Part shown: one piece after another, positions 16,571 to 24,131 of the stretch
Layout of the letters: every line of letters begins with the position of its first letter
How positions within the stretch are numbered: position 1 is the first letter of the stretch
Source: an uncultured Gemmatimonadota bacterium
Lineage (GTDB): Bacteria; Gemmatimonadota; Gemmatimonadetes; Gemmatimonadales; Gemmatimonadaceae
Length of the DNA stretch: 64,000 nt
Direction: 5' to 3'
Assembly: GCA_903882745.1 (NCBI GenBank)
Contig: CAIRYG010000012.1
Coordinates: forward strand, 1 to 64,000
Position numbers and translations under genes: made by a program
Notes under the pieces: generated by a model
Seen by the model: only the letters and a program-made list of their open reading frames with translations
Told to the model about the DNA's origin: nothing
Database searches by the model: none

Positions 16571-18244
16571 TTACGAGAGCCCCACAATATCACCGTCGGC
16601 ATTCACCGACATTCCTTCGGCAGCCGGCACCTTGGGAAGGCCCGGCATCGTCATGATGTCACCCGCCTTGGCCACAATAAACCCGGCGCCCGCCGAGCCA
16701 TAGACTTCATTGATGGTGATCCGGAACCCCGTCGGCGTGCACAGGCGCGTCGCGTCATCGGTCAGCGAATACTGCGTCTTCGCGATGCACACTGGCGTGT
16801 TGCCGAGCCCAATGGACGTCAGATACTCAATTGACCGCTCCGCACTCGGCGAGTAGTCCACACCGTCGCCCCCGTACACCTTCTTCACCACCGTCTCGAT
16901 CTTCTCCTTGATCGGCAGGTCGGTTGAGTAGAGCGGGGCATACTTCGCCGTCTTGGCCGCCAGCATAGCGAGTACTTCACGAGCGAGATCAGCTCCACCC
17001 TCGCCGCCCTTGGCCCAGACTTCGGTCAGGATCACCTTCACACCCAGCTTCGCGGCGTAGTCCTGTACCATCTGCAACTCGGCATCCGTGTCAGACAGAA
17101 TCCGGTTCAGCGCCACGACCACCGGCACCCCGAACTGACTCACGTTCTTCACGTGGTGCGCGAGGTGCGGCAATCCACGCTCCAGGGCGCCGAGATCTTC
17201 CTTCGTGAGAGACTTCTTGTCGAGTCCGCCCTGCATCTTGAGCGACCGGATCGTCGCAACGAGGACCGCGGCCTCAGGATTCAACCCGCCAGCGCGGCAC
17301 TTGATGTCAAAGAACTTCTCGGCGCCGAGATCCGAGCCGAAGCCGGCTTCGGTCACGACGACGTCGCCCAGCGCCAGCGCTGACTTGGTCGCAATAATCG
17401 AGTTGCACCCGTGCGCGATATTGCCGAATGGGCCGGCGTGCACGAGGGCAGGGCCTCCTTCGAGCGTCTGCACAAGATTTGGGCGAATCGCGTCCTTGAG
17501 CAGCATCGCCATTGCGCCATCGGCCTTGAGGTCGCGCGCGCGGACCGGCTGACGGTTCGCACCCGCGGTCGCGCCGACAATGATTCGGCCGAGGCGTTCC
17601 TTCAGGTCGTCCAGACTGCTAGAGAGCGCGACGACGGCCATGATCTCACTCGCGGGAATAATCACCCAGTGCTCTTCGCGCACCACGCCGTCAGCCATAC
17701 CGCCGAGTCCAATGACGGCATTGCGGAGCGCGCGATCATTCATGTCAATCGTACGCGGCCAGGTAATACGGCGCGGATCGAGGTTGGTCGGATTTCCCTG
17801 TTGCAGCGAATTGTCCATCATCGCGGAGAGCAGCGCGTGGGCACTGCTGATCGCGTGGAAGTCGCCGGTGAAGTGGAGGTTGATGTCCTCCATCGGAATC
17901 ACCTGCGAGTACCCGCCGCCTGCGGCGCCGCCCTTGACCCCGAAGACAGGGCCGAGCGATGGCTCGCGAATGCAGAGCACAGCGTTCGTCCCAATCTTGC
18001 GCAACGCCTGTGCCAAGCCGACGCTCACCGTACTCTTGCCTTCGCCGGCAGGAGTGGGGGAAATCGCCGTCACCAGCACCAGGCGACCCTTGGCGGGACG
18101 CTGTGAGATTTCGAGTGGGATCTTCGCCTTGTACTTGCCGTACTGGTCAATATCGTCGGGCGTGAGCCCCAGGTCCGCAGCCACGTCAACGATGGGGCGC
18201 GGCTTGGCCGCCTGTGCGATTTCGATGTCCGTTGGGAACGCCAT
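16571..18244 (-). CDS. fhs: Formate--tetrahydrofolate ligase
   Basis: 557 residues, the usual length. It makes 10-formyl-THF from formate, THF and ATP. The P-loop is in TAISPTPAGEGKSTVSVGL (about 60-77), followed by 'CIREPSLGPVFGVKGGAAGGGYSQVIPMEDINLH', the family signature. 'GFGSDLGAEKFFDIKCR' is also present. It is downstream of fdhD and the formate dehydrogenase genes on the same strand (41-bp gap), tying formate oxidation to the folate C1 pool. In reverse it would supply formate. Confidence 0.97.
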   Translation of the reverse strand: MAFPTDIEIAQAAKPRPIVDVAADLGLTPDDIDQYGKYKAKIPLEISQRPAKGRLVLVTAISPTPAGEGKSTVSVGLAQALRKIGTNAVLCIREPSLGPVFGVKGGAAGGGYSQVIPMEDINLHFTGDFHAISSAHALLSAMMDNSLQQGNPTNLDPRRITWPRTIDMNDRALRNAVIGLGGMADGVVREEHWVIIPASEIMAVVALSSSLDDLKERLGRIIVGATAGANRQPVRARDLKADGAMAMLLKDAIRPNLVQTLEGGPALVHAGPFGNIAHGCNSIIATKSALALGDVVVTEAGFGSDLGAEKFFDIKCRAGGLNPEAAVLVATIRSLKMQGGLDKKSLTKEDLGALERGLPHLAHHVKNVSQFGVPVVVALNRILSDTDAELQMVQDYAAKLGVKVILTEVWAKGGEGGADLAREVLAMLAAKTAKYAPLYSTDLPIKEKIETVVKKVYGGDGVDYSPSAERSIEYLTSIGLGNTPVCIAKTQYSLTDDATRLCTPTGFRITINEVYGSAGAGFIVAKAGDIMTMPGLPKVPAAEGMSVNADGDIVGLS

Positions 18245-18285: not shown

Positions 18286-19128
18286 TCACCCTACGAGAAT
18301 ACGCTCGGGATGGGTGTACACGTTGGCACTCGTCCCACGCAACAAACCAACAAGCGCGATTCCTGCGCCCTCGGCCAACCGTACCGCGAGTCCGGTTGGC
18401 CGCGATACGGCGGCAATCAGGGGAATCCCAACCGTCGCGACTTTTTGCACTAACTCAAAACTTGCGCGGCTCGTGACGACAACAAACCCCGGTGCTGCCG
18501 CATGCTCGCTTCGCGACAGCGAGCCGATCACTTTGTCCAGCGCGTTGTGGCGCCCGACGTCCTCTCGCACGATCAGCAACTCCCCCTCGGCGCTGGCCCA
18601 AGCGGCGGCGTGGACGGCCCGCGTGTCCGCATTCAGCGTCTGCCGTTCGTCGAGCGCCGCGCCCGCAGCGTAGAGCGCCGAACGGTTGACCGTGAAGGAC
18701 GATGTGACCGCGACTGCTGGGCGAACGGCCTCATCGATTGCCTCAACGCCGCACAACCCGCATCCGGTACGCCCCGCAAGCATGCGTGCGCGGTCCTGTA
18801 GCTGCGCCTCGCAGTCCGCCGGAATCGTGATGTGCAGCTCAACGCCACGACTGTGCTTCACAACCTCGACAGCTCCAATCTGTGCGGCCGAACCAACGAT
18901 TCCTTCGGTCAGCGTAAAGCCAACGGCCAGGTCCTCGAGATCAATCGGCGACGCCATCATCACGACGTGTGTGCGTGCCCCATACACGAATGCGACGGGC
19001 ACCTCCTCCGCGACCATCCCATCGGCAAACGCGTCCAGCTGGCCGTCGATCCGCGAATACGTGCGCGACTCGGCCGCGGCACCGTAGCCGAGCCCGGGGT
19101 CAGCTCCGAAGCGCGATGAGTTAGCCAC
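18286..19128 (-). CDS. fdhD: Formate dehydrogenase accessory sulfurtransferase FdhD
   Basis: 280 residues from the GTG at 19128, which overlaps the stop of the upstream gene (GTGGCTAA); the frame reaches 19185 but that would overlap by 65 bp. FdhD transfers sulfur from IscS to the molybdenum of formate dehydrogenase. The catalytic loop GRTGCGLCGVEAIDE with its Cys pair is visible, as are 'DLAVGFTLTEGIV' and 'VREDVGRHNALDKVIG'. Last gene of the formate dehydrogenase block, followed by fhs. Confidence 0.95.
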   Translation of the reverse strand: MANSSRFGADPGLGYGAAAESRTYSRIDGQLDAFADGMVAEEVPVAFVYGARTHVVMMASPIDLEDLAVGFTLTEGIVGSAAQIGAVEVVKHSRGVELHITIPADCEAQLQDRARMLAGRTGCGLCGVEAIDEAVRPAVAVTSSFTVNRSALYAAGAALDERQTLNADTRAVHAAAWASAEGELLIVREDVGRHNALDKVIGSLSRSEHAAAPGFVVVTSRASFELVQKVATVGIPLIAAVSRPTGLAVRLAEGAGIALVGLLRGTSANVYTHPERILVG

Positions 19129-20101
19129 GCCCGCTGACGCCGGTCGATGCGACTGGGTTCGGCCCTTGTACGAATCGCCACCCAAATCGCCCCTTGATGC
19201 ACAGATTCCCGAGCGTGATGCTGTTCTCGAGCGGCGAGGTACTCTTGACGATGATGTCGTCCTGCACGTGCAACGTCAGCGTGCAGCCCACGCCACAGTA
19301 GGGGCAGATCGTGTCCGTGACCTGTTGCGCTTCCTCATGCCACGTGCCGGCAGCCCGCATGTCGTACTCGTCTTTCGCCATCAAAGCGCCGGTGGGGCAT
19401 ACGGCAATACAGTTGCCGCAGTACACGCACGCCGACTGGGGCAGCGGGACCGCGAGTTCGGTAGATATTCGCGCATCAAACCCTCGTCCCGCGACCGCAA
19501 TGGCGAAGGTGTTCTGGTGGTCGGGGCCGCACGCCTCGACACACTTATAGCACAACACACACTTGCCGTAGTCGCGGATATACAGGTCGTTGTCCACTTT
19601 CGTCGGCTGGGCGACCCGCGCGGCGTACGCAACGTTCGGCGGCTGGTGGTGGCCGGGAATGTGAGCATCCCGTGTCCCCGGTGCGTGTGGCGGCTCCGGC
19701 GGTCCATATCGCTCGGGTGAACAGTCATACTCTTCGAGAAGATCGCTCATCCCAGGGGTCGTCGAGAGGTCGACCGACGACGCCAGCAACTCAAGTACGA
19801 GCTTCCGGGAGTGTTTCACGCGGGCGCTTTGTGTCTGTACCTGCATACCCGGTTCCACCGCCCGTGAGCAGGCCGGGGCAAGCACACGCGCTCCTTCAAC
19901 CTCAACCACACACAGACGGCACACGTTCACCGGCCGCAGCGTTTCGAGATAGCAGAGCGTGGGGACCGTGATCCCGAGAGACTCGCAGGCATTGATGATC
20001 GTGGTCCCTTCAGGCACCGTGACCGCCTGCCCATCGATGGTCAGTGTCACCATCGTCTTTGGCGTCCGGTCCGGACGTCCCAACTGTACGAGCGGCGTCA
20101 T
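19121..20101 (-). CDS. Formate dehydrogenase, iron-sulfur half of the alpha chain
   Basis: 326 residues; the ATG at 20101 overlaps the previous stop (ATGA). Domains in order: a 2Fe-2S ferredoxin domain (CYLETLRPVNVCRLCVVEVEG, then CSRAVEPGM), a His/Cys-ligated 4Fe-4S segment (about 100-140), two 4Fe-4S sites (CVLCYKCVEACG and CVYCGNCIAVCPTG). Finally there is the N-terminal 4Fe-4S domain of the molybdopterin oxidoreductase family (ICPYCGVGCTLTL ... LGNLCIKGRFGWRFV). It then stops. In normal NAD-linked FdhA/FdsA the molybdopterin body continues directly; here it is a separate gene at 21952-23940. So this is the electron-transfer half of a split alpha subunit. Confidence 0.9.
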   Translation of the reverse strand: MTPLVQLGRPDRTPKTMVTLTIDGQAVTVPEGTTIINACESLGITVPTLCYLETLRPVNVCRLCVVEVEGARVLAPACSRAVEPGMQVQTQSARVKHSRKLVLELLASSVDLSTTPGMSDLLEEYDCSPERYGPPEPPHAPGTRDAHIPGHHQPPNVAYAARVAQPTKVDNDLYIRDYGKCVLCYKCVEACGPDHQNTFAIAVAGRGFDARISTELAVPLPQSACVYCGNCIAVCPTGALMAKDEYDMRAAGTWHEEAQQVTDTICPYCGVGCTLTLHVQDDIIVKSTSPLENSITLGNLCIKGRFGWRFVQGPNPVASTGVSGRG

Positions 20102-21951
20102 GAGACCACCTCAAAGAGGCGCAAACGTTTGATCGCTGATTCAACCGCGGAATAGGCGGTCTGACCGAGGCCGCAGATTGATGCGTCCCGCATCGCGACG
20201 CCAACTTCCTCGAGCAGCGCCAGCTCTCGACCGGTACCCCCAAGAGTGGCACCCTTCACAATGCGGTGTAGCGCCTCCTCCTGCCGCACTGTTCCCACGC
20301 GACAGGGGACGCACTGACCACACGATTCGTCGCGGAAGAATCCCGCGATACGCAGCACGACATCGCGGAGATCTGCGTGGTCGGCGAACACCATAACAAC
20401 ACCGGAGCCGAGCGTCGTGTTGGCAGCGCGTGAGGCTTCCAGTGTGAGCGGCAGGTCAATTTCGTCGGCACGCAAGAACGTCCCCGCGGCGCCGCCCAAA
20501 AGGATCGCCGACACCGAATCGGTGCCAGCCATCGCGAGCAGGTCTCGGAGGTTGGTGCCCATCGGCACCTCGTAGACCCCGGGACGCGCGACTGCACCTG
20601 AAAGGCAGAAGAGTCGCGTGCCGGTCGAGTTCCCTGAGCCAGTCGACGCGTACCGTGCTCCGCCCTCGAGCACGATCGGCAACACGTTGAGCAACGTTTC
20701 CACGTTGTTCACCACCGTCGGTTTCCCGAACAGTCCTACCTCAACAGGGAAGGGCGGCTTGCTCCGAGGTTCGCCGCGCTTTCCTTCGATACTCTCGAAG
20801 AGCGCGGTTTCCTCTCCGCAGATATACGCGCCGGCCCCACGGCGAATCTCAATGTCGAATCCGGCCGCAAATAGCCCCGCATCACGCGTCTGTTGAATCG
20901 CGTTCGCCATACGGTCCGCAGCCAGCGGATACTCGGCGCGGATATACACAAATGCCCGGCTCGCACCGGTGGCGAATGACGCAATCATCAGTGACTCGAC
21001 GAGCGCGAACGGATCCTGCGTCAGCAGCACGCGGTCCTTGAAGGTCCCGGGTTCTGACTCGTCCGCATTGCACACGAGGTAGTGTGGGCTCGCTGCCTGC
21101 GTGCGCACGGCCTCCCATTTGCGGCCGGTGGGGAACGCGGCTCCCCCGCGACCAACAAGCTTGGCCGCGCTCACCTCAGCGATTACGGCCTCAGCTCCCA
21201 TCGCCCGTGCCTTCGCCAGTGCAGTAAAGCCACCAGCAGTCCGGTATGCCTCAAGACTCGTGGGGTCAACGACGCCACAGCGCTTGAGCAGTACGAGCGA
21301 GGGATCCCCGTGCTGCGGTAGCTCGGGAACATGACTGTCTGCCGGAGCCGAGTCACTCCCAGTAACGAGCCCCACGGCCTGCTGCGGTGTGACGTGCCCG
21401 AGCAGTCGCTCAACGGGAGTCTCGCCGGCGATCGTGAGCAGGGCAGCGGGCGCGGCATCACAGAGCCCCAAGCAGGGCGAGTGCATCCAGGCGCCATCGC
21501 GCTCGTCGAGCACCACCTGACTTCCCGCCGGCGCTTCACGCACCGAGCGGCCACAGGCGGACTCAAGCGCGTGCTCGATTTCCCTCGTTCCGCGATTGCG
21601 GCATCCTACATCGTCACAGACGTGTAGGACGCGCTGAGGCCGTGGTGTGGTCGCGAACAGCGCGTAGAAGGTGGCCACGCCCCACGCATCAGCTGGAGGA
21701 ACGCCGAGGCGCTCACAGACGTAGCCGAGTCCGCCCTCTGAAATCCAACCAACCCGCCCCTGTAAAGCGTGGAGCGCGGGAATCAGTTCATGCCGACGAT
21801 CGCGAACTGACTTGCCCCCGGGAGCAGTATGGGCATCCCGCGCCGAGCCGCGCGCGCCGCCATCCCACGCGTTCGTTGGTGCACCGAGTACAGCATCCAC
21901 GGCCGCGCGTTCGACAGCGGTCGGGGTGGCGTCCAGCAGTTTGATGTCCAC
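20098..21951 (-). CDS. Formate dehydrogenase NuoE-NuoF-like fusion (NADH-oxidising subunit)
   Basis: 617 residues, GTG start directly after the previous TAA. The N-terminal ~200 residues are NuoE/FdsG-like (LIPALHALQGRVGWISEGGL; Cys in HVCDDVGCRN and SPCLGLCDAAPA for a 2Fe-2S cluster). The rest is NuoF/FdsB-like: 'GRGGAAFPTGRKWEAV' (FMN/NAD site), 'CNADESEPGTFKDR', 'GAGAYICGEETAL', and the 4Fe-4S motif ESCGQCVPCRVGT with a distant Cys in ICGLG. It takes electrons from formate to NAD+ (or the reverse). It lies between the two halves of the alpha chain. Confidence 0.94.
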   Translation of the reverse strand: MDIKLLDATPTAVERAAVDAVLGAPTNAWDGGARGSARDAHTAPGGKSVRDRRHELIPALHALQGRVGWISEGGLGYVCERLGVPPADAWGVATFYALFATTPRPQRVLHVCDDVGCRNRGTREIEHALESACGRSVREAPAGSQVVLDERDGAWMHSPCLGLCDAAPAALLTIAGETPVERLLGHVTPQQAVGLVTGSDSAPADSHVPELPQHGDPSLVLLKRCGVVDPTSLEAYRTAGGFTALAKARAMGAEAVIAEVSAAKLVGRGGAAFPTGRKWEAVRTQAASPHYLVCNADESEPGTFKDRVLLTQDPFALVESLMIASFATGASRAFVYIRAEYPLAADRMANAIQQTRDAGLFAAGFDIEIRRGAGAYICGEETALFESIEGKRGEPRSKPPFPVEVGLFGKPTVVNNVETLLNVLPIVLEGGARYASTGSGNSTGTRLFCLSGAVARPGVYEVPMGTNLRDLLAMAGTDSVSAILLGGAAGTFLRADEIDLPLTLEASRAANTTLGSGVVMVFADHADLRDVVLRIAGFFRDESCGQCVPCRVGTVRQEEALHRIVKGATLGGTGRELALLEEVGVAMRDASICGLGQTAYSAVESAIKRLRLFEVVS

Positions 21952-23940
21952 TTACTGATGCTCCGCGTGCTGAAGCGCACCGCGCTCGACCAACTCCGCT
22001 CGCTCTGCCAGCTCTGCGGCTGTCGCGCGGTCCACCCGGACAGCACACGCCTTGAACTCAGAAGTTCCCGACTTGGGATCGAACACGTCGGTGGTCAGCA
22101 CGTTCGTCGACACCTCGTCCGGGAAATGCAGCGTCATGAAGAGCAGCTTCTCACGCAGCGCCTTGTCGATAAAGGCAGGCGCGAGCACCGTGCCACGACG
22201 CGACGAAATCCGCACAATGTCGCCGTCCACAATCTGCAACGCCCGAGCATCTTCTGGTGAAATATCCAACGATTCTCCCCAGTGCAGCGGCGAGCGATAG
22301 CCGGAGGTCTGGACCCCCGTGTTGTACGACTCAAGTCGACGGCCGGTCGTGAGCAAATAGGGATACGTGGCATCCCGTCGCTCGCTTGGTGCCTCGTTCT
22401 GTGCAATGCTGAACGGCGCGGCGCGTCCCACTCTCGGCTGCTGCCACAAGCGCTCATGCAGGAACGGCGTTCCGGGATGTGATTCGTCTGGGCAGGGCCA
22501 CTGGATGCCCCCGAGCTCCTCGAGGCGCGCGTAACTCATCCCGCCCGCGAACGCTGGCGCTGCAACGCGGAACTCGTTCCAGACCTCTTCCGCCGTCGGG
22601 GTGGTCCAGTCGTGTCCGAGTCGACGGGCCAGCTCCGAAATGATCCAGAGCTCGTCGCGCGCGCCCTCGGGCGCCGATCGTGCCTTTCGAACCCGCTGCA
22701 CGCGGCGCTCGCTATTGGTCACCGTGCCGTCTCCCTCGCACCAGGTCGCGGCAGCGGGGAAGACGACGTCCGCGAGCTGCGCGGTCTTGGTCAGAAAAAT
22801 CTCTTGCACCACGAGGTGCTCGAGGCCGTTGAGAATACGCTCCACGCGATTCCCGTCGGCATCGCTCTGCACCGGATTTTCACCGATAACAAAGAGTCCC
22901 TTCATGTCGCCATGTTCCATGGCATGCAGCATCTGGGTGAGATTCTTCCCGTACGTGGGCTGAATCTCCACGCCCCACAACTTGCCAATACGCTCCCGGG
23001 CTTCGGGATCCTGCTCAATATCTTGGAACCCAGGGAGCTTATTGGGGATCGCCCCCATATCGCCGCCGCCCTGCACGTTATTCTGGCCGCGGAGTGGGTT
23101 GCACCCGGCCCCCCATCGTCCAACCTGGCCGGTGAGCAGGCACAAGTTGATCAGCGAGAGGACGTTATCGACCGCGTTGTGATGCTCGGTAATGCCAAGC
23201 GTCCAGCAAATCATCGCACGCTTCGCCGTCGCAAATGCGTGTGCCGCTTCGCGAATAACATCGGCGGGGATTCCCGTCGTCTCTTCGACCGCCTCTGGCG
23301 AATACGCCTGCACCGCAGCCTTGTACGCGTCAAATCCTTCCGTCGCATTCGCAATGAATCCTGGATGCGTCAGGCCGGCCGCGATAATCTCATGCGCAAT
23401 CGCGTTGGCCAACGCGATGTCCGATCCCACGCGCAGGCCAAGCCATACGTCCGCCCACTTGGCGCTCGAGGTGCGCCGTGGGTCCATGACGTAGAGTCGC
23501 GTATCGTTGTGGCGGATCCCCTTCAGCAGGTGGTGGAACCAGATCGGATGCGCTTCACGGGCATTGGAACCCCAGAGAAACACAACGTCCGCGTCCTCCA
23601 CCTCCTCGTAGGAGTTGGTGCCGCCTCCTGCTCCGAACACTGTCGCCAGACCGACGACGCTAGGGGCGTGTCACGTTCGATTACAACTATCAATGTTGTT
23701 GGTCCCGAAGACCACTCGGCTGAATTTCCCCGCAAGGAAGTTCACCTCGTTCGTGCTCTTGGAGCAGCTGAACATGCCGAGCGCATTGGGGCCATGCGCC
23801 GATTTAATAGTCCGGAAGCCGGCCGCGGCGCGATCCAGCGCCTCGTCCCACGTGGCAGGGCGAAGCACCCCGTGATCACGCACCAACGGCTCAGTCAAAC
23901 GCTCGTACGCCTGAGGCGTAGTGGAACGACGAGTACTCAC
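21952..23940 (-). CDS. Formate dehydrogenase catalytic subunit with in-frame TGA selenocysteine
   Basis: 662 residues with TGA (23671-23673) read as selenocysteine at residue ~90. The frame is continuous across it: VVFGTNNIDSCNRT-U-HAPSVVGLATV, the conserved active-site sequence of formate dehydrogenases, where the family has Cys or Sec. After it come 'GGGTNSYEEVEDADVVFLWGSN', 'LTGQVGRWGAGCNPLRGQNN' and the C-terminal molybdopterin domain ('YPYLLTTGRRLESYNTGVQT'). Start chosen as GTG at 23940 with GGAG 8 bases upstream; a TTG at 23982 is the alternative. It lacks the N-terminal 4Fe-4S domain, which is in the 19121-20101 gene. A program treating TGA as stop would report two genes, ending at 23671 and starting near 23640. 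Confidence 0.93.
23642..23673 (-). promoter_or_regulatory. Bacterial SECIS element with Sec UGA
   Basis: Directly after the TGA (23673-23671), the minus-strand RNA reads 18 bases, then the loop GGUCU (23652-23648) enclosed by a 6-bp stem GUCGUC/GGCGAC (23658-23653 with 23647-23642, one G-U pair). As I recall the E. coli fdhF SECIS, it also has a GGUCU loop about 18 nt after the UGA, which is where SelB binds. The agreement in loop, stem and spacing makes this a strong call. Confidence 0.9.
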
Positions 23941-23985
23941 TGGTTGTTCTCCATACGGGAAGAACGACAGCGGACGGTCCAAAGA

Positions 23986-24003
23986 CCTTCCTCTATAGGA
24001 AGG
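23986..24003. promoter_or_regulatory. Inverted repeat upstream of the formate dehydrogenase operon
   Basis: CCTTCCT-CTAT-AGGAAGG, a perfect 7-bp inverted repeat 45 bp upstream of the GTG at 23940, in the 190-bp divergent gap to 24132. It could be an operator or a leader hairpin. No confident -35/-10 pair was found for either direction in this gap. Confidence 0.4.
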
Positions 24004-24131
24004 AAGATGGGGGCGGGACCCTCGCGACGGAAGCCTATTCTCCCTGCAAACCAGACGGCGACGACTGGGTAGAGGCGGGATTGCGCTCCGCAGGTTATGA
24101 TGGTCTCGTCCGCACTCTCGGAGCCCGTTCG

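Follow-up and report, generated by a model that had tools for sequence, protein, structure and literature searches.

A 64,000-nucleotide stretch of an uncultured Gemmatimonadota bacterium (assembly GCA_903882745.1, contig CAIRYG010000012.1, positions 1 to 64,000 of the forward strand; hereafter the window) carries a formate dehydrogenase (FDH) gene interrupted by a single TGA, and our analysis supports the decoding of this codon as selenocysteine (Sec) at the active site of the enzyme. Judged from sequence, the locus very probably encodes a nicotinamide adenine dinucleotide (NAD)-linked FDH with a molybdenum (Mo) or tungsten (W) bis-pyranopterin guanine dinucleotide (bisPGD) cofactor and Sec as metal ligand, built from three chains and split such that the domain of the proximal cluster would be supplied in trans. 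SelB-directed Sec insertion at the UGA, which we infer from the comparisons below, is very well supported.

A probable selenocysteine codon in the catalytic gene

The minus strand reads ...FGTNNIDSCNRT-TGA-HAPSVVGLATVFGAGG..., where GTNNIDSCNRT directly precedes the TGA, and no other stop interrupts the frame between about 23940 and 21952. Gene calling with translation table 11 returns two open reading frames (ORFs) in the same frame, the first (23671-23982, 103 aa) ending at the TGA and the second (21952-23640, 562 aa) having its apparent start 33 bases past it. The gene probably starts at a GTG at 23940, with GGAG 8 nt upstream; a TTG at 23982 is a longer alternative. Translated with Sec at the TGA, the gene yields a product that matches formate dehydrogenases nearly end to end (TIGR01591, E 1.6e-195; E. 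coli FDH-H, E 1.4e-137; FdhF of the hydrogen-dependent CO2 reductase, HDCR, E 4.3e-156), and in the alignment with E. coli FDH-H the TGA coincides exactly with Sec140 ('cnrtCHAPSV' against 'carvXHGPSV'). The chain contains the family motifs U/C-H and NPxRGQNNVQG as well as the molybdopterin and dinucleotide-binding domains, and both the His following Sec and the Arg of NPLRGQNN are invariant in 26 homologs. An AlphaFold model built with 26 sequences (mean predicted local distance difference test score, pLDDT, 77.8) retrieved the FDH structures 7vw6, 1fdi and 6tg9 in Foldseek (template-modelling scores, TMq, 0.84, 0.86 and 0.84), as expected for a chain consisting of domains II-IV. A preliminary description of this DNA had proposed a TGA flanked by same-frame sides, 33 bases before the next start, replacing the Cys/Sec ligand of the Mo site and causing standard callers to split the gene at its active site, all of which we recovered. 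A 486-aa open frame also runs antisense to the catalytic gene (window 22612-24072, plus strand), and nothing marks it as a gene; automatic callers could favour it because the true gene is interrupted by the TGA.

We assembled orthologs through genome searches among relatives and one scan of the contigs of named genomes, yielding 121 locus matches, some of them overlapping copies of one place, at identities of at least about 60% plus one pair at 43%; 96 of the close matches are non-redundant. A TGA is observed at the Sec codon in all 121, and no close ortholog has Cys there, the six Cys codons seen belonging to distant fused enzymes of 38-41% identity. Across the phylum, 21 of 150 sampled genomes have an ortholog (at least 64% identity), each with the in-frame TGA; after these comes a gap in identity, the next matches lying at 45% or less and beginning to show longer frames. 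Named contigs with orthologs are labelled as Gemmatimonadota, Planctomycetota, Acidobacteriota, Chloroflexota and Actinomycetota, as well as Rokubacteria, Dormibacterota, Eisenbacteria, Deltaproteobacteria and Spirochaetes. Some orthologs (G003, G005, G056, G137 and G161) show a TAG or TAA in addition to the TGA, which is probably the gene's own stop lying within the alignment.

The SECIS hairpin and the decoding machinery

Downstream of the UGA, the RNA can form the hairpin GUCGUC-GGUCU-GGCGAC, with its stem pairing 23658-23653 with 23647-23642 and its loop 18 nt after the UGA, corresponding to the apical part of a selenocysteine insertion sequence (SECIS). The 17-mer folds into six pairs at -6.8 kcal/mol (z -2.57). 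With added 3' sequence, a 64-nt fold has a different minimum-energy structure (z +0.35), so folding energy alone is insufficient to reveal the hairpin, but conservation and covariation do reveal it. The six-pair stem is kept in 94 of the 96 non-redundant homologs and the GGTCT loop in 93. Codons for residues 109-113 are nearly frozen (GTC 94/96, GTC 70/70, GGT 93/95, CTG 93/96, GCG 85/87), although at other positions of the catalytic gene these homologs encode those amino acids with many different codons. These five codons, at the hairpin, are the gene's peak of synonymous constraint: among 603 windows of eight codons, the seven under the strongest constraint each start at one of codons 104-110. 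Full stem and loop occurred in 446 of 20,000 random synonymous recodings.

Covariation leads to the same structure. In an alignment of 38 sequences, 98.2% of cells are paired, with a compensatory change from C-G to G-C at two pairs, and the covariation score (0.252, against 0.158 shuffled) was beaten by 0 of 500 shuffles and exceeded that of every slid version; RNAalifold, unaided, predicts the same six pairs. A covariance model, whose building sequences include the window, scores the site at 68 bits, the next best match in the genome reaching 18.7 bits. No second credible SECIS was found in the genome with this model, as the three next matches, when read, proved to be unrelated context or an ordinary stop. 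Rfam at gathering thresholds gave no match within the window.

In E. coli fdhF (from MG1655), GGTCT likewise lies 18 nt after the TGA. The upper stem of the E. coli element has a bulged U involved in SelB binding; unlike that element, the hairpin here has six pairs and no evident bulge, the corresponding position pairing as U-G, C-G or U-A in 38 of 38 aligned sequences. The 6-bp stem, GGUCU loop and 18-nt spacing given in the preliminary description are present and kept in nearly all homologs; its term 'textbook SECIS' is slightly generous, given that no bulged U is evident.

The genome of the host, with 3.06 Mb in 14 contigs and a completeness rating of 100%, also holds the Sec machinery whose presence elsewhere had been predicted: selA, selB, a tRNA-Sec (selC) and selD were all found (Table 1), and selC adjoins selD. 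These matches exceed the curated cut-offs, which the elongation factors and other tRNAs of the same genome do not. SelD appears to be the Cys form, because its stretch KCAGCAAK is encoded without an in-frame TGA. Among 61 relatives, selB is over the cut-off in 22 of 23 enzyme-bearing genomes and selA in 21 of 23; the Fisher p values for co-occurrence of enzyme and machinery (0.0019 for selB, 0.023 for selA) ignore kinship. Two genomes of the same genus (G002 and G014) have selA and selB, and the split Sec FDH was not found in them, a pattern reflecting either missing contigs or a different selenoprotein that maintains the trait.

The separately encoded [4Fe-4S] domain

The preliminary description overlooked that the [4Fe-4S] domain is missing from the catalytic gene and is encoded by a separate gene downstream. 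PF04879 (Molybdop_Fe4S4) was not found in the catalytic chain; it was found in the iron-sulfur protein two genes downstream. Positions 1-49 of TIGR01591 fall on that protein and positions 50-672 on the catalytic protein, which alone scores 651 bits, slightly below the curated 666. In Rhodobacter capsulatus FdsA, residues 15-303 align in one piece with the iron-sulfur protein, from its 2Fe-2S module through the [4Fe-4S] domain, and residues 307-934 with the catalytic protein. The four FDH-type cluster Cys and the Lys of CxKG are invariant in 26 aligned iron-sulfur homologs. Since the iron-sulfur proteins end soon after CIKGRFGW-FVQ in nearly all of 28 ortholog loci (L121 continues for at least 80 residues), the cut lies at a single homologous place.

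The operon also contains NuoE and NuoF modules, as in NAD-dependent FDH of the FdsABG type. Junctions are tight, with the catalytic gene ending at 21952 and NuoEF beginning at 21951, and NuoEF overlapping the iron-sulfur gene by four bases. The observed order of catalytic, NuoEF and iron-sulfur genes is kept in orthologs whose contigs reach far enough, with two exceptions (L134 and L136). In five loci (L078, L079, L080, L085 and L132) the NuoE, NuoF and iron-sulfur modules form one ORF together with the FDH [4Fe-4S] domain, and the catalytic chain is separate. Further downstream, the listed TTG start of fdhD overlaps the upstream gene, and the true start probably lies further in. The product of a neighbour outside the enzyme reads as formate-tetrahydrofolate ligase, which would be consistent with one-carbon (C1)/formate metabolism.

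Table 1 Features of the locus (window coordinates) and Sec machinery on contig C11 of the host genome.
Feature	Position	Strand	Evidence
FDH catalytic subunit gene, domains II-IV only (PF00384 + PF01568), one in-frame UGA	21952..23940	minus	domain and TIGR01591 searches, alignments, AlphaFold model
UGA codon read as Sec, Mo/W ligand (predicted)	23671..23673	minus	alignment with E. coli FdhF Sec140; ortholog TGA
SECIS apical hairpin, six pairs, GGUCU loop	23642..23658 (loop 23652-23648)	minus	folding, conservation, covariation
NuoE-NuoF fusion (2Fe-2S thioredoxin-like + FMN/NADH-binding diaphorase subunit)	20098..21951	minus	domain searches; position after the catalytic gene conserved in orthologs
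Iron-sulfur electron-transfer subunit (2Fe-2S, two 4Fe-4S) with FDH [4Fe-4S] domain at C-terminus	19121..20101	minus	TIGR01591 1-49, domains, FdsA alignment
Molybdop_Fe4S4 domain (CPYCGVGC...CIKG)	19166..19336	minus	domain search; invariant residues in homologs
fdhD, formate dehydrogenase sulfurtransferase	18286..19185	minus	family and domain searches
Neighbour outside the enzyme, reads as formate-tetrahydrofolate ligase (fhs)	16571..18244	minus	named from translation alone
selA	C11:303312-304394		470 bits
selB	C11:100633-102486		357.5 bits, full length
tRNA-Sec (selC)	C11:34344-34436		85.2 bits; UCA anticodon by ARAGORN
selD	C11:34524-35447		385 bits

In the mechanism that we propose, SelB with Sec-tRNA(UCA) would bind the hairpin and insert Sec during translation, producing a Sec catalytic chain without the proximal [4Fe-4S] domain. 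The iron-sulfur chain, which ends in that domain, would dock in trans, placing it beside the pterin with the CxKG lysine, and electrons would pass through it to the flavin mononucleotide (FMN) of the NuoE-NuoF diaphorase and then to NAD+, FdhD having sulfurated the cofactor. We infer this docking and electron path from the complementary domains, the order of genes in the operon and the conserved residues. The chains would form a complex with NAD as acceptor, and formate oxidation is more likely than CO2 reduction as its direction. On balance, it also seems likely that such loci represent a widespread, undescribed FDH class, in which the active site would be shared by an always-Sec catalytic chain and an iron-sulfur chain giving the [4Fe-4S] domain and CxKG lysine in trans.

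Several observations weigh against this picture. No selA was detected in two ortholog-bearing genomes, G017 (78% complete) and G038 (95% complete). Every named match is a metagenome-assembled genome or an uncultured contig, and the phylum assignment of some bins may be wrong. The iron-sulfur gene is also displaced by a further ~4 kb in L134, and in L136 it is broken into two frames.

Sec and split are separable traits, since one match at 43% identity (L072, on G059:C24) combines a TGA at the Sec codon with a conventionally fused alpha chain. Several matches of 41-45% identity in the phylum sample have an alpha chain of the fused FdsA type whose frame contains a single TGA (its place at the Sec codon was checked in L072 only), so further Sec formate dehydrogenases exist in Gemmatimonadota. 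Weak matches with frames of ~1,000-1,180 aa and one TGA occur in G034, G037, G039, G043, G049, G052, G054 and G058 and are probably FdhN/FdoG-type formate dehydrogenases with Sec; if so, they would account for the presence of Sec machinery where the split enzyme is absent.

Among the alternatives, one concerns the direction of catalysis: the enzyme might mainly reduce CO2 and feed formate to the adjacent fhs. That gene, as read from its translation, and the catalytic chain's best sequence match in the PDB, the CO2 reductase FdhF of HDCR, both speak for it, but fhs can consume external formate too, and NAD-linked formate dehydrogenases of this build normally oxidise formate; we consider this account unlikely. 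It is very improbable that the catalytic chain functions without a proximal cluster, like members of the dimethyl sulfoxide (DMSO)-reductase family that lost theirs, and that the iron-sulfur protein serves another role: the operon itself contains the absent segment, with the cut in the corresponding position, and the four Cys and CxKG Lys of this segment are invariant across distant taxa. We give next to no credence to the TGA being a true stop, as in a pseudogene, two genes or a sequencing or assembly error; the two ORFs of standard calling fit it, but protein identity is 60-78% on both sides of the TGA, the downstream RNA is strongly constrained and the Sec machinery is complete, and the TGA at the identical codon in each of the 121 ortholog matches, which come from many independent assemblies, in effect refutes the pseudogene and sequencing-error readings, which we dropped. 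Equally negligible, and likewise dropped, is a non-Sec residue inserted by a suppressor or code change, which would suit a frame open on both sides but not the tRNA-Sec with UCA anticodon, the SECIS after the TGA or the column, in which every relative has Sec or Cys; under such a code, adjacent genes would run nonsensically into one another.

Relation to known formate dehydrogenases

No bacterial selenoprotein is more widespread than the Sec-containing FDH (PMC5029168; PMC13188914), so Sec decoding at this locus is, by itself, ordinary known biology. What is apparently undescribed in the three-chain enzyme is a split conserved across distant taxa and, in this sample, always found with Sec. Our literature search, which covered open-licence papers only, so that absence from it is weak evidence, found no mention of a Sec FDH in Gemmatimonadota or of an FDH with a separately encoded [4Fe-4S] domain. 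In Gemmatimonadota, Planctomycetota, Acidobacteriota, Chloroflexota and other mostly uncultured bacteria, counts of formate oxidation and selenium use are probably too low, because standard calling severs the gene at the active site. With the cluster domain and the catalytic body naturally apart, it becomes testable whether electron transfer from the Mo/W site to the proximal cluster requires one chain, and a modular Sec-dependent NAD-linked enzyme would be relevant to CO2 reduction chemistry.

E. coli FDH-H (FdhF; 1aa6/1fdi/1fdo) shares with the catalytic gene and its product the Sec column, the UHxPSV motif, the 18-nt GGTCT spacing and the fold (Foldseek TMq 0.86), but unlike the locus here it has its own N-terminal [4Fe-4S] domain and lacks an NADH module. 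The FdsA-type NAD-dependent FDH of R. capsulatus (6tg9/6tga) has the same modules, namely the iron-sulfur N-terminal part, NuoE, NuoF and the catalytic domain. Its FdsA, however, is one 958-residue chain, whereas here two genes stand in the order C-half, NuoEF, N-half, with NuoE and NuoF fused and Sec as the ligand. FDH1 of Methylorubrum extorquens (7vw6/8j83), the best structural match of the catalytic chain, has a beta subunit that is also a NuoE-NuoF fusion; the iron-sulfur and catalytic domains that are separate here lie together in its alpha chain of ~990 residues. HDCR FdhF (7qv7), the best PDB sequence match (E about 4e-156), is a single chain with its own [4Fe-4S] domain and belongs to a hydrogenase complex. 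Formylmethanofuran dehydrogenase (FwdB/FwdD) is a bisPGD enzyme in two genes, but its cut is at the C-terminal pterin-binding domain, and that of the present enzyme is at the [4Fe-4S] domain. The bifurcating HylCBA-FdhA enzyme of Clostridium acidurici and Desulfotomaculum combines a Sec-containing FdhA with separate NADH and iron-sulfur subunits (PMC5736913); its FdhA retains its own 2Fe-2S and 4Fe-4S domains.
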